Source: Flavobacterium anseongense
Lineage (GTDB): Bacteria; Bacteroidota; Bacteroidia; Flavobacteriales; Flavobacteriaceae
DNA length: 64,000 bases
Assembly: GCF_021608185.1 (NCBI RefSeq)
Contig: NZ_JAKIHN010000001.1
Location: forward strand, 620,001 to 684,000
Direction: 5' to 3'
The notes beneath the pieces were generated by a model, which was not told the origin of the DNA, did not search any database, and was given only the letters and a program-made list of their open reading frames with translations. The stretch's first letter is position 1. Every line of letters starts with the position of its first letter. Both the position numbers and the translations under genes were made by a program. Of this stretch, positions 6,680 to 57,959 are shown in pieces.

Positions 6680-6964
6680 GTTAGTTCTTGTGTTTTATTC
6701 CGCTATGCTTCATACAGTTCGCCTAGTCGGCTTGTGTCAAATATACCATTTTTATCGAAAAGTCGTACTGAATAGGAATGTGCGTTAGGGATTCCTTCGG
6801 CAGTCGCTTCGCTCGTGTGTAGTGGCATCCTTTTTTTGGTTTGTACTTCGACAGGCTCAGTATGACAAACCAAAAAAAGGTAGACGGAAAGCCCGACCCG
6901 AAGGGAAACGCCATAAAAAAACGCATCCAAAAAATGAATGCGTTTATTTCTTATGTATAATGGC
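6680..6964. repeat. gene-free repeat-bearing spacer between EEP gene and sdhB
   Basis: These 285 bases hold no credible gene. Short minus-strand frames here have no recognisable product and run through repeats. The right half is copy 1 of the dispersed hairpin repeat (6782-6912). The left half (6690-6780) contains a further GC-rich stretch with an internal TATATTTG on the minus strand that precedes no gene with usual spacing. Confidence 0.6.
6782..6912. repeat. dispersed hairpin repeat, copy 1
   Basis: It starts GCGTTAGGGATT and has GGCATCC followed by a near-perfect 16-bp inverted repeat (arms about 6829-6844 and 6866-6881) rich in T and A. It ends with ACGGAAAGC, CCCGAAGGGAAACGCC. The right flank matches copy 4 at 57844-57950. 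The loop carries the CTTCGACAGGCTCAG sequence seen as an interspersed repeat in many Bacteroidetes genomes. Confidence 0.8.
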
Positions 6965-24382: not shown

Positions 24383-24991
24383 ATGGCTTTCGATTTACCG
24401 CAGTTACCTTATGCTTACGATGCATTAGAACCACATATTGATGCTAGAACGATGGAAATTCACCATTCAAAACATCACAATGCTTATACAACTAATCTAA
24501 ATGCTGCTGTAACAGGCACCGATTTAGAAGGAAAAACAATAGAAAATATTTTAATCAATTTGGATATGAAAAATGCAGCCGTCAGAAATAACGGTGGCGG
24601 ATTTTATAATCACAATTTGTTTTGGAGAGTAATGTCGCCAACTGGCGGCGGTAAACCAACAGGAGATTTAGCAGATGCTATTGATGCTGCATTTGGTTCG
24701 TTTGATGAATTTAAAGCACAATTTGCAAAAGCCGGAGCGACACGTTTTGGTTCAGGTTGGGCATGGCTTTGTGTTCACAAAGGAGGAAAAGTTGAAGTTT
24801 GTTCAACACCTAATCAAGATAATCCTTTAATGCCGGAAACTGGTTGTGGTGGATTTCCAATCTTAGGAATGGACGTTTGGGAACATGCATATTATTTAAA
24901 TTATCAAAACCGCCGTCCTGATTATATTGAAGCATTCTTTAATGTGATTAACTGGACAGAAGTGGCAAGATTATACGCTACAGAAAAATAA
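24383..24991 (+). CDS. superoxide dismutase, Fe/Mn family
   Basis: The 202-residue cytosolic enzyme dismutates superoxide. Metal ligands are visible: His in [12 protein letters not shown], His in GFYNHNLFW, and Asp and His in [20 protein letters not shown]. The NNGGG segment (Gly where FeSODs have the active-site Gln) together with NQDNPL (Gln in the MnSOD position) points to a manganese or cambialistic type. It lacks a signal peptide. It is transcribed alone from a TAAATTTG promoter and ends in a strong terminator at 25012-25042. Confidence 0.95.
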
Positions 24992-25056: not shown

Positions 25057-25140
25057 AAAAAAATAAACAGGCGGAATTGCTTCCACCTGTTTGCCCCAAA
25101 TCTACCATAACTTACTTAACCTACTAAATACTATGGTAAA
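25057..25140 (-). ncRNA. putative small RNA A (tandem with B)
   Basis: The unit has no ORF. On the minus strand a TAGCTTTG -7 box is followed by TTTACCATAG, then GTAGGTTAAG, then TTATGGTAGA, so TACCATA/TATGGTA forms a 5' hairpin of at least 7 bp. A linker, ATTTGGGGC, leads to a 12-bp terminator stem (AAACAGGTGGAA / TTCCGCCTGTTT) and a T-run. One terminator pair is G-U on the minus strand but C-A on the plus strand, which fixes the transcribed strand. Predicted length is about 84 nt. It is a paralogue of unit B at 25251-25331. No known Rfam family can be named from sequence alone. Confidence 0.6.
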
Positions 25141-25141
25141 G

Positions 25142-25149
25142 CAAAGCTA
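25142..25149 (-). promoter_or_regulatory. -7 box (TAGCTTTG) of small RNA A
   Basis: TAGCTTTG on the minus strand precedes the TACCATAG start of unit A at nearly the same distance as the box of unit B. There is no TTG at standard spacing, so A may be weaker or regulated. Confidence 0.5.
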
Positions 25150-25250
25150 ATAACTTGAACTAAATAAATGTACTTTTTGTTAAAATATATTTGGATGATA
25201 GGCAAATGAGAGGTTAAATACCTTTTTTTAAATGATTTTCAGACAATTAT

Positions 25251-25331
25251 AAAATAAAAAAGGTGAAAATTTCTTTTCACCCTTTTTGCCCCAAATCTAC
25301 CATAAACTTAACCTACTAATGCTATGGTAGA
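25251..25331 (-). ncRNA. putative small RNA B (tandem with A)
   Basis: On the minus strand TCTACCATA and TATGGTAGA form a perfect 9-bp hairpin whose loop contains GTAGGTTAAG. The linker TTTGGGGC follows, then a terminator stem (GGTGAAAA / TTTTCACC, 4-nt loop) and TTTTTTATTTT. Length is about 80 nt. A full-consensus promoter sits immediately upstream (25333-25364). No reading frame of note. The 5' hairpin and linker match unit A closely, while the terminator stems differ in sequence but keep the fold, the pattern expected of an RNA gene duplicated and then diverged. Confidence 0.65.
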
Positions 25332-25332
25332 C

Positions 25333-25364
25333 CAAATATAAACTGATTATAAATGTTAAAACAA
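25333..25364 (-). promoter_or_regulatory. promoter of small RNA B (TTG-N21-TATATTTG)
   Basis: On the minus strand TTG (25364-25362), 21 nt, then TATATTTG (25340-25333), with transcription predicted to begin within TCTACC. It lies in the purF 3' flank, so the RNA is not simply the purF 3' UTR. Confidence 0.7.
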
Positions 25365-25418
25365 AAAATATAGATGAAATGCACCAATAATCGTTTAACT
25401 TCAGAAAATGTTAAAATT

Positions 25419-27317
25419 TTAGTAGGCACGTGCATTTTTTCCCTCATAAAAATTCATAAATGCCTTATTAGCAACACGGTTACCACCTGGAGTTGGATAG
25501 TCCCCTGTAAAGTACCAATCACCTAAATTTTTTGGACAGGCGAGGTGTAAATTTTCTACGGTTTGGAAAATGATTTTTACTTCTGCATTTATGTCTTCCG
25601 AGGTTAGTAATTCTGCTATTTTATTCGAGATTTCCTGGTCTGTGAAGGGTTTATATATTTCGGTTACGTAATTGATAACATCGTTATCTTTATAATTAAT
25701 CTGTGCTTTACATTTATCATAAACCTCATCTACTATGTGATATAAATTACGCTCTTTTAATAACTCCAATGTCGCTTGAAAAGCAACTAATCCTTCCAAT
25801 TTTGCCATGTCAATACCATAACAATCCGGAAAACGTATTTGTGGCGCTGATGAAACTACAACAATTCGTTTTGGATGCAATCGGTCCATCATTTTGATTA
25901 TCGACATTTTTAAGGTGGTTCCTCTAACGATACTATCATCAATAATAACCAAATTATCTTTTGGCTGAATTACGCCATAGGTAACATCATAAACGTGTGC
26001 AACTAAATCATCCCGGCTACTGTCTTCTGTAATGAATGTTCTTAGTTTGGCGTCTTTGATGGCAATCTTTTCGGTTCTGATTTTTACCGAAAGGATTTCT
26101 TCAAGCTTTTCTTTTGTTAATGTCTTTCTGTTATCTAAAATAAATTGATTCTTTCTTTGATTCAGAAAATCGTTCGCCGCCTCTACCATTCCGTAAAAAG
26201 ACGTTTCTGCCGTGTTTGGAATGTATGAGAAAACTGTGTTGTCGGTATCATTATCAATAGCGTCCAAAACTGCCGGAAGAATTAGTTTTCCTAATTCTTT
26301 TCGTTCCTGATAAATTTCTGCATCACTTCCGCGTGAAAAATAAATACGCTCAAAAGAACAAGCTTTCTTTATAGTTGGCTCAATAATTTCTTCTTCGGTT
26401 ATGAATCCGTTTTTCTTGATGATTACAGCATGTCCCGGTTGCAACTCCTGTACTTTTTCAAACGGAACATTAAAAACCGTTTGAATAACCGGTCTTTCAG
26501 AAGCTACAACGGCAATTTCATCATCCTGATAAAAATAAGCGGGGCGAATTCCCGCAGGATCACGGAAAACAAATGCATCGCCATGACCTAATAGTCCGGC
26601 CATTGCATAACCGCCATCCCAACCTTTGGAAGCGCGTTTTAAAATTTTGGTGATATCTAATTTCTCAGCAATAACAGGGGAAGCTTCCCTTTTAGAAAGC
26701 CCGTTATTTTTACATTCCTGATACAAATCGGTAACAGCATCATCAAGGAAATGACCAATTTTTTCCATAACGGTAACGGTATCTGTCATTTCTTTTGGAT
26801 GCTGGCCCAATTCTACCAAACTATTAAAAAGTTCAGTAACATTGGTCATGTTAAAGTTTCCTGCCAAAATCAGATTACGATGCATCCAATTATTTTGTCT
26901 CAAAAACGGATGAACGCTTTCTATGCTGTTTTTTCCAAAAGTTCCGTAGCGAACATGTCCTAAAAACAATTCACCGATGTATGGGATATTTTCTTTCTGT
27001 AACGCCACATTATCCTGATATTCCGGATGCGAAGTTAGTTCGTCATTAATTCTTTCATTGATTTGAGCAAAAACATCCTGAATCGCCTGAGATTTATTAG
27101 AGCGAACTCGGCTTATGTATCTTTCGCCAGGTTCAACATCTAATTTTATCGAGGCAAATCCGGCCCCGTCTTGTCCGCGGTTGTGCTGCTTTTCCATCAG
27201 CAGATACATTTTTTGTATGCCGTAAAAAGCCGAACCATACTTTTCTTTGTAGAATTCTAATGGTTTTTTTAATCGTAAAAGTGCAATTCCACATTCGTGT
27301 TTTATCGCGTCGCTCAT
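25419..27317 (-). CDS. purF: amidophosphoribosyltransferase-type protein
   Basis: The 632-residue enzyme of the PurF type catalyses the first committed step of purine synthesis (PRPP plus glutamine to phosphoribosylamine). The N-terminal Ntn glutaminase nucleophile is Cys9 after a short propeptide (MSDAIKHE-CGIALL). MEKQHNRGQDGAG and GHVRYGT are glutaminase motifs, and VIIDDSIVRGTT is the PRPP-binding loop of the C-terminal PRTase domain. It is longer than the roughly 500-residue E. coli enzyme, as is usual in Flavobacteria. The start at 27317 is chosen over the ATG at 27380, which would read through the terminator region of the upstream kinase gene. Confidence 0.92.
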   Translation of the reverse strand: MSDAIKHECGIALLRLKKPLEFYKEKYGSAFYGIQKMYLLMEKQHNRGQDGAGFASIKLDVEPGERYISRVRSNKSQAIQDVFAQINERINDELTSHPEYQDNVALQKENIPYIGELFLGHVRYGTFGKNSIESVHPFLRQNNWMHRNLILAGNFNMTNVTELFNSLVELGQHPKEMTDTVTVMEKIGHFLDDAVTDLYQECKNNGLSKREASPVIAEKLDITKILKRASKGWDGGYAMAGLLGHGDAFVFRDPAGIRPAYFYQDDEIAVVASERPVIQTVFNVPFEKVQELQPGHAVIIKKNGFITEEEIIEPTIKKACSFERIYFSRGSDAEIYQERKELGKLILPAVLDAIDNDTDNTVFSYIPNTAETSFYGMVEAANDFLNQRKNQFILDNRKTLTKEKLEEILSVKIRTEKIAIKDAKLRTFITEDSSRDDLVAHVYDVTYGVIQPKDNLVIIDDSIVRGTTLKMSIIKMMDRLHPKRIVVVSSAPQIRFPDCYGIDMAKLEGLVAFQATLELLKERNLYHIVDEVYDKCKAQINYKDNDVINYVTEIYKPFTDQEISNKIAELLTSEDINAEVKIIFQTVENLHLACPKNLGDWYFTGDYPTPGGNRVANKAFMNFYEGKNARAY

Positions 27318-27351
27318 TGTAGTTGTTGTGTTGTAGTTAGTTGTATTGTAA

Positions 27352-27380
27352 AACAAAAATGCCCCGAAAATTCGAGGCAT
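27352..27380 (-). terminator. intrinsic terminator of the PfkB kinase gene
   Basis: On the minus strand ATGCCTCG and CGGGGCAT (one G-U pair) form a stem around AATTTT, followed by TTTTTGTTTT, only 4 nt after the stop codon. Confidence 0.85.
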
Positions 27381-36208: not shown

Positions 36209-36212
36209 GAAA

Positions 36213-36287
36213 TAGCCCAGATTGCAACGGTATCCTTTTTTGTTTTTTTAAACAAAAAAGATATAGTGGAAAGCTGGAAATAGCTCC
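36213..36287. repeat. dispersed hairpin repeat, copy 2
   Basis: It starts TAGCCCAGATTG, has TATCC followed by TTTTTTGTTT / AAACAAAAAA inverted arms and ends GATATAGTGGAAAGC, GGAAATAGCTCC. It matches copy 3 (44098-44173) almost base for base. Confidence 0.82.
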
Positions 36288-44029: not shown

Positions 44030-44097
44030 TGTGTTAATTTGTTAATTCGGTTATTTGGTTATTTGATAATCCGAATGTTGTTGTTAGTTTTAACTTC

Positions 44098-44173
44098 TAG
44101 CCCTGATGGTAGCGGCATCCTTTTTTGTTTTTCAAAAACAAAAAAGATATAGCGGACAGCAGGAAATAGCTCC
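44098..44173. repeat. dispersed hairpin repeat, copy 3
   Basis: TAGCCCTGATGG, AGCGGCATCC, TTTTTTGTTTTT / AAAAACAAAAAA arms, GATATAGCGGACAGC, GGAAATAGCTCC. Right after it a CTTCGACAAGCTTAGGATGACA fragment is found, a relative of the sequence lodged in copy 1. Confidence 0.82.
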
Positions 44174-57719: not shown

Positions 57720-57959
57720 TTTTGTCGTTTTCTTTAATCAAGTCTGCGAAAGTAGTGATTATTAGTAAATAGGCAAAAGGCAAGAGGCAAAAGTTATCGT
57801 TTTGCTGTAAAAACAAGAATAATTTAATATTGTAAAGTGAATTGCGTTAGCGATTGGAGAGGAAATCCTTTTTTTAAATTGCCATGGGTTTTAACCCGTG
57901 GTAATTTAAAAAAAGATTGGAACGGAAAGCACGGCCCGAAGGGAAACGCCCTAATTAAA
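57720..57959. repeat. gene-free spacer with short GGCAAAAG repeats and hairpin repeat copy 4
   Basis: The 240 nt between ileS and recO contain GGCAAAAGGCAAGAGGCAAAAG-type short repeats (57773-57794) and copy 4 of the dispersed hairpin repeat. No ORF. A TACTTTCG sequence near 57750 on the minus strand is one mismatch from the promoter box and could drive ileS. Confidence 0.5.
57844..57950. repeat. dispersed hairpin repeat, copy 4
   Basis: GCGTTAGCGATTGGAGAGGAAATCC, then TTTTTTTAAATT and AATTTAAAAAAA arms with an internal CCATGGGTT / AACCCGTGG stem (one mismatch). It ends ACGGAAAGC, GGCCCGAAGGGAAACGCC, shared with copy 1. Confidence 0.82.

Follow-up and report, generated by a model that had tools for sequence, protein, structure and literature searches.

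Two tandem candidate small-RNA genes between sodA and purF of Flavobacterium anseongense, with conserved complementarity to the leaders of CAP-domain lipoprotein genes

Introduction

What is encoded in the 427 nt that separate sodA from a purF-like gene in Flavobacterium anseongense, and on which target would the products act? The question arises within a 64,000-nt stretch of this genome (positions 620,001 to 684,000 of contig NZ_JAKIHN010000001.1, hereafter the window), in whose gene-free purF/sodA gap a first-pass annotation had proposed two small-RNA (sRNA) genes in tandem on the minus strand, belonging to no described family. According to the FopS paper (PMC11697453), these bacteria are devoid of the sRNA chaperones that are classical in Pseudomonadota; the only sRNA-target pair outside Bacteroides found in our literature search was Rfp18 of F. 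psychrophilum. Trans-acting antisense sRNAs are a known kind of regulator, whereas a family with a conserved target such as the one analyzed here is undescribed in Rfam 15 and the literature searched.

Organization of the locus

The size of the gap and the repeats found in it bear out the proposed arrangement. Units A and B are both located on the minus strand, each one comprising a -10 box, an ACCAUA..UAUGGU hairpin, a GAUUUGGGGC linker and a terminator (Table 1), and their 5' halves are nearly identical as had been claimed, with a repeat of 30 nt (90% identical) and another of 14 nt (identical) spaced 195 and 192 nt, respectively. The sequence TATGGTAGATTTGGGGC has exactly two occurrences in the window; with up to 3 mismatches it is found in 3 places, against 0.11 expected.

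Table 1. Features of the purF/sodA gap and its flanking genes, in positions of the window.
Feature	Position	Strand	Basis and remarks
sodA	24383..24991	+	PF02777 and PF00081; convergent neighbor, placement conserved
Unit A small RNA, ~78 nt	25060..25137	-	Covariance model and fold; +1 inferred at 25137
Unit A intrinsic terminator	25065..25092	-	Fold; family covariation; includes a U-G pair specific to the minus strand
Unit A pairing segment 2, GUAGAUUUGGGGC, linker	25093..25105	-	Window repeat; complement in CAP leaders
Unit A pairing segment 1, AGUAGGUUAAG	25115..25125	-	Perfect complement at 4 genomic sites only
Unit A -10 box, TAGCTTTG	25142..25149	-	Sequence; box position conserved in 62 units
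Unit B small RNA, ~77 nt	25252..25328	-	Covariance model and fold; +1 inferred at 25328
Unit B intrinsic terminator	25256..25287	-	Fold; family covariation
Unit B pairing segment 2, GUAGAUUUGGGGC, linker	25288..25300	-	Complement in CAP leaders
Unit B pairing segment 1, AGUAGGUUAAG, hairpin loop	25307..25317	-	Perfect complement at 4 genomic sites only
Unit B -10 box, TATATTTG	25333..25340	-	Sequence; TTG at 25362-25364, spacing 21; box position conserved in 62 units
TTTCATCTATATT upstream of unit B	25367..25379	-	Motif frequent in CAP upstream regions as well
purF-like gene	25419..27380	-	TIGR01134, E 5e-37, 128 bits (below the model's own cut-off of 350 bits); upstream same-strand neighbor, placement conserved

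Distribution and synteny of the sRNA family

Unit B was used as a DNA query against 149 genomes of Flavobacteriaceae, the family of the window, sampled as one per genus plus a second Flavobacterium. Matches were obtained in 129 genomes at E<=0.01 and in 120 at E<=1e-6, the other 20 genomes giving no match at E<=0.01; the sRNA family is present in most sampled genera. From the best 30 loci we extracted 62 units and built a covariance model, R1, from all of them; it scores unit B at 92.5 bits and unit A at 68.0 bits, both being among the 62 units of the model. A covariance search across relatives had been proposed as a check in the first-pass annotation; when R1 was run with stricter filters over a phylum sample of 395 genomes, strong matches (E 1e-14 or better) appeared in 33 of the 41 Flavobacteriaceae and in none of the 354 other genomes, 65 of which gave weak matches only (best 35.9 bits). 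In the genome under study R1 finds two copies, both at this locus (blastn counted a third match), and some other genomes carry additional copies at distant places.

The placement of the units is also conserved, since purF and sodA both lie within ~3 kb in 23 of the best 30 loci, one of them does in 6 and neither in a single locus. A 33-base Flavobacterium form was found in at least 119 stretches of named genomes; among 80 loci listed for it most are from Flavobacterium, a few come from unclassified bins and one is from a Lentimicrobium bin.

Promoters and 5' ends

The 62 units were aligned at the first A of ACCATA, and the bases upstream were T at -12 (58/62), A at -11 (59/62), T at -8 (62/62), T at -7 (59/62) and G at -5 (51/62). 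The TAnnTTTG box that had been reported for both units is therefore conserved in position throughout the related units, and this box (TA..TT.G) sits where the sigmaA box TAnnTTTG is located in F. psychrophilum, from -12 to -5 (PMC9723704). Because the ACCATA-aligned box occupies the sigmaA position, we place the 5' ends at 25328 and 25137, slightly displaced from the ends near 25330 and 25139 that had been suggested. The full promoter TTG-N21-TATATTTG assigned to unit B is present as described, but its TTG at -33 is not conserved in the relatives.

Some upstream tandem copies, at four of the inspected loci and at others, carry a variant -10 box (e.g. TACTTTAG or TAAATTGG) and also a C at the TTYATGG position; tandem copies with a variant box may be differently regulated.

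Fold, terminators and coding potential

Folded from the predicted +1, unit B gives a z value of -3.6, with 1 of 200 dinucleotide shuffles as good, and unit A a z value of -4.5, with 0 of 200. In the alignment of 62 units the consensus ACCATAACATAAGTAGGTTAAGTTYATGGTAGATTTGGGGCA is nearly invariant and the terminator varies with compensation: changes on both sides were seen in 8 of 20 pairs, all in the terminator, a number reached by 0 of 500 shuffles, whereas 10 of 500 equalled the number of additional pair types. This agrees with the earlier observation that the terminator stems of the two units differ in sequence and keep their pairing. The pair in the terminator of unit A that is G-U on the minus strand only was also confirmed. 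Compensatory change had been anticipated for both stems; it is found in the terminator but not in the 5' hairpin, whose stem hardly varies and shows no covariation in the 62 units. With so little variation, the 5' stem neither supports nor opposes the predicted fold. The 9-bp hairpin described for the 5' end of unit B includes promoter bases, so that the predicted transcript would have the ACCAUA/UAUGGU stem.

These data bear on whether the units could instead be processed pieces of the purF 3' UTR or genes for short peptides. The purF-like gene does lie upstream on the same strand, and the linker contains the frame AUG GUA GAU UUG GGG CAA; however, every unit has a conserved promoter box and a terminator of its own, and the linker has an added A (GGTAAGATTT) in 10 of the 62 units followed by an A-run of varying length, thus no reading frame is kept in it. 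We consider this explanation extremely improbable. Conservation in 129 of 149 genomes, the promoter box, terminator compensation and placement support the units as putative independent small-RNA genes, as had been proposed, each apparently equipped with the own promoter and terminator that characterize trans-acting sRNAs, judging from sequence.

CAP lipoprotein leaders as predicted targets

Searching the own genome with the linker (up to 3 mismatches) yielded two unlinked genes, on contigs C12 and C34, the sRNAs being on C1. Both leaders read TTTGCCCCACATCTAC ... CTTAACCTACT-ACT-ATG and are complementary to the linker and the loop of the sRNAs. In the whole 3.07 Mb genome CTTAACCTACT occurs exactly four times, namely in both sRNAs (on the opposite strand) and in the two leaders, where three bases separate it from the ATG. 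The products of the two genes are CAP-domain proteins of 166 aa (PF00188, E 9.8e-14 and 3.6e-13) with a lipoprotein-type signal according to our own reading; they show a weak likeness, below the cut-off and only a lead, to DalA, described as a peptidoglycan-binding outer-membrane lipoprotein of Rhodobacterales (PMC10470522).

The predicted duplexes between the sRNAs and the CAP leaders reach -46.6 to -50.6 kcal/mol, energies that ignore internal folding of either RNA. The control consisted of 3,136 starts from 464 kb of this genome, each an ATG opening a frame of 50 codons or more; the best of them gave -36.8, and they averaged -18.2 with unit B and -18.1 with unit A. Pairing of the GTAGGTTAAG loop and the GGGG linker with targets, which had been put forward as plausible, is strongly supported by this sequence complementarity, as the CAP leaders are complementary to both. 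The units thus show complementarity, kept in relatives, to mRNAs encoded elsewhere, as would be expected of a trans-acting sRNA.

The leader of the CAP gene on C34 (L007, ~1430-1540) carries the GCCCCACATCTAC element twice, as if it had been duplicated.

Other sites in the genome were also considered. One-mismatch complements of the loop number 17 besides those above, of which 2 have an ATG frame of at least 40 codons close downstream, with -26 to -31 kcal/mol. Linker-only sites followed by AUG (up to 3 mismatches) were 38+41 vs 45+34 in the backward control, thus showing no excess, and the sole non-sRNA linker site with a single mismatch opens a frame of 15 codons. The exact bipartite pattern GCCCCANATCTAC-N9-35-TTAACCTACT was found in this genome only, 1 of 149, therefore leaders were compared by orthologue instead. 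Matches of the bipartite pattern in the 149 genomes are mostly sRNAs on the other strand, and among the matches listed 6 of the 23 remaining sites are at CAP genes. Eleven bipartite loci were inspected: two are sRNA loci, one is a CAP gene, one holds a 363-codon frame and the remaining seven have frames of up to 48 codons.

Conservation of the complementarity

A CAP relative is present in 42 of 61 Flavobacterium genomes. From this genus we took the 29 best-scoring loci, not all CAP matches of the 42 genomes, and scored them with the sRNA unit of one relative; 26 of the 29 could be scored, since three had no acceptable start, and a few starts look early. All 26 leaders scored at -34.7 or lower, with a mean of -42.1 as compared with -15.4 for the reversed sRNA, and 200 base shuffles per leader never gave an equally good value.

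Outside the genus the complementarity is weaker and shorter. A first set of 28 leaders from other genera (of 29 CAP loci, one having failed the start rule and its CAP start having been counted in the background at -34.5) had a mean of -26.0, vs -17.5 for the background and -18.7 for the reversed sRNA (p 1.6e-12). In a larger set, scored with the consensus sRNA, 107 CAP leaders of 110 loci averaged -24.7 vs -15.9 for 436 background starts (p 2e-40); this set includes the first one and two loci from Flavobacterium, some genomes contribute two CAP copies, and sRNA-bearing loci are part of the background. Both p-values are too small because related genomes were treated as independent. Thirty-six of the 107 leaders fall within the best 1% of the background and 66 within the best 5%, 71 missing the best 1%. 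The reversed sRNA scored -18.0 on the CAP leaders, better than the background mean of the sRNA itself, so the difference in energy may be due in part to base composition.

Among CAP start regions from other genera (the two Flavobacterium loci being left out), 73 of 105 hold a perfect complement of 8 nt or longer, compared with 26 of 436 in the background and 3 of 105 for the reversed sRNA; the other 32 regions have no match of 8 nt. The commonest perfect complements are CCAAATCTA, TGCCCCAAAT and ACCTACTTATG. By our own reading, one group of leaders has the AACCTACTTA element immediately downstream of the ATG, not upstream of it.

Co-occurrence and a shared upstream motif

At thresholds of E<=1e-6 and 1e-10, both the sRNA and a CAP protein were detected in 101 of the 149 genomes, the sRNA alone in 19, CAP alone in 3 and neither in 26. 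Positions of both were available for 91 genomes, those among the matches listed for 103 genomes with both; in 33 of the 91 a CAP gene is no more than 70 kb away from the sRNAs, a limit set after the positions were seen. Shared ancestry inflates the co-occurrence as well as the linkage counts.

The 19 genomes with strong sRNA matches and no detected CAP protein speak against control of CAP mRNAs by the sRNAs, and would fit better with CAP leaders acting as a sponge that soaks up sRNAs whose main job is elsewhere. Such a role would also suit the double linker complement in the C34 leader and the scattered non-CAP matches to the bipartite site. On the other hand, the pairing site adjoins the AUG, very few of the other one-mismatch loop sites precede a frame of 40 codons or more (and these at modest energies), and linker-only sites before an AUG are no commoner than in the backward control; we regard the sponge as quite unlikely and antisense control of CAP mRNAs as the better account.

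Regarding transcriptional control, TTYRTCKAW was found upstream of 24 of 29 CAP genes vs 16 of 367 background ORFs, and upstream of 24 of 26 within Flavobacterium; the stricter TTH-N-TCGAT precedes 58 of 107 CAP genes, a count for which no background was taken. When a profile derived from the regions preceding CAP genes was applied to the sRNA promoters, it scored above both the more distal upstream DNA and shuffles (p 1e-9 and 4e-11), but with only 14 positions above 6 bits in the last 100 nt of the 62 sRNA promoters, and the usual motif spacings differ (20 vs 42 bp). From these sequence data the case for a shared motif appears moderate, and a common regulator of sRNA and CAP genes is plausible. 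The direct repeats ~21 bp apart presumably recall LytTR sites. As a definition of the regulon, TTTCATCKATNTT with one mismatch proved too short (89+83 vs 69+73 in the control).

In the own genome, TTTCATCGAT was seen upstream of three genes with signal-like product starts, one of which has a second copy ~21 bp further along; the motif may be common to a regulon of secreted proteins.

Proposed mechanism

We propose that the locus probably contains two tandem genes for trans-acting antisense sRNAs, whose loop and linker would pair with CAP leaders and block translation. Each RNA of ~77 nt would be made from its own sigmaA-type promoter, starting with ACCAUA and ending at its own terminator, and the tandem copies would raise the sRNA dose. 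Loop AGUAGGUUAAG and linker GUAGAUUUGGGGC would then pair with the leader of the CAP (PF00188) lipoprotein mRNA up to the start codon, most likely stopping ribosome loading next to the AUG and leading to less surface lipoprotein. Blocked translation is the likeliest outcome because the predicted duplex extends along the CAP leader as far as the start codon, which in some species it spans; FopS blocks translation of susC by pairing with the start region (PMC11697453).

We infer repression rather than activation mainly from this geometry. Pairing alone gives no sign, and the sRNAs might bind the CAP mRNA and stabilize it or activate its translation, as could be thought from Rfp18, whose deletion lowers two protease mRNAs in Flavobacterium (PMC9723704). 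A leader paired up to the AUG is nevertheless the arrangement in which FopS blocks translation (PMC11697453), and we think activation unlikely.

The similar upstream motif suggests one regulator for sRNA and target, which would constitute an incoherent feed-forward loop. In its widest form, a single transcription factor acting through TTTCATCKAT repeats would drive both CAP and the tandem sRNA genes in an ancient, family-wide loop retained by most genera, in which the pairing sites shift (before, across or after the AUG) and complementarity is retained; we offer this tentatively, as a possibility that we rather doubt.

The putative sRNA occurs in most sampled genera of a large family, and for it a single conserved target is sharply predicted, down to the individual bases that could be mutated. 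Post-transcriptional control in these bacteria thereby becomes open to direct testing, and the CAP lipoproteins gain a first handle. The family merits an entry in Rfam since it is absent from release 15.

Comparison with known RNA families

Rfam 15 at its cut-offs gave no match at either unit nor in the loci of 15 relatives, in line with the first-pass annotation, which knew of no described family. No published description of the sRNA family was found in the literature searched by title and abstract, where the loop string AGTAGGTTAAG matched only unrelated papers. The F. psychrophilum catalogue, with 85 new RNAs and an sRNA list Rfp1-89 (PMC9723704), may contain the family.

FopS (RF04319) was considered as a candidate. 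Units B and A might be distant members of that family chiefly targeting SusC or PUL mRNAs, since they give sub-threshold matches (20.4 and 19.9 bits) and FopS is also multicopy and pairs with start regions (PMC11697453). Those scores, however, are far under the 56-bit gathering score, none of 60 relatives rose above the cut-off, and an antisense to any AU-rich start region may look somewhat alike; several of 22 inspected sub-threshold matches resemble, in our own reading, gene starts on the opposite strand. The layout differs as well, with a seed in a predicted hairpin loop plus linker, in tandem at one locus, in place of a single-stranded 5' seed without 5' hairpin, and the conserved complement was found in CAP genes. 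We judge membership in FopS very unlikely, and treat the units as a separate family.

In another family of the order, sub-threshold FopS matches (L041 and L042, ~1501-1570) read CATAGTAAGATTTTGGGTTAG plus a terminator; they resemble FopS and the linker part of the sRNA family, and are possible intermediates.

Flavo-1 (RF01705), like our units a conserved RNA motif of Flavobacteria, with no known function (PMC9723704), has three copies above the Rfam cut-off in the window, all on the plus strand (36210-36284, 44095-44170 and 57839-57940), and a fourth, weak one under it (6806-6902). The two units match Flavo-1 neither at its 42-bit gathering score nor in a permissive scan.

The Rfp sRNAs of F. 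psychrophilum (Rfp18 and others) are similar in being conserved, independent sRNAs of the same genus, whereas Rfp18 is described with a third stem-loop and with protease and adhesin targets (PMC9723704). With FopS/GibS of Bacteroides the units share their short length, multiple copies, own sigma promoters and terminators, predicted pairing with start regions of surface-protein mRNAs and a weak sequence likeness. They differ in that FopS/GibS has 12-15 copies per genome instead of two tandem copies at one locus, and acts on SusC and PUL genes, whereas the conserved complement here lies in CAP lipoprotein genes. FopS also binds the RRM-1 protein RbpB.
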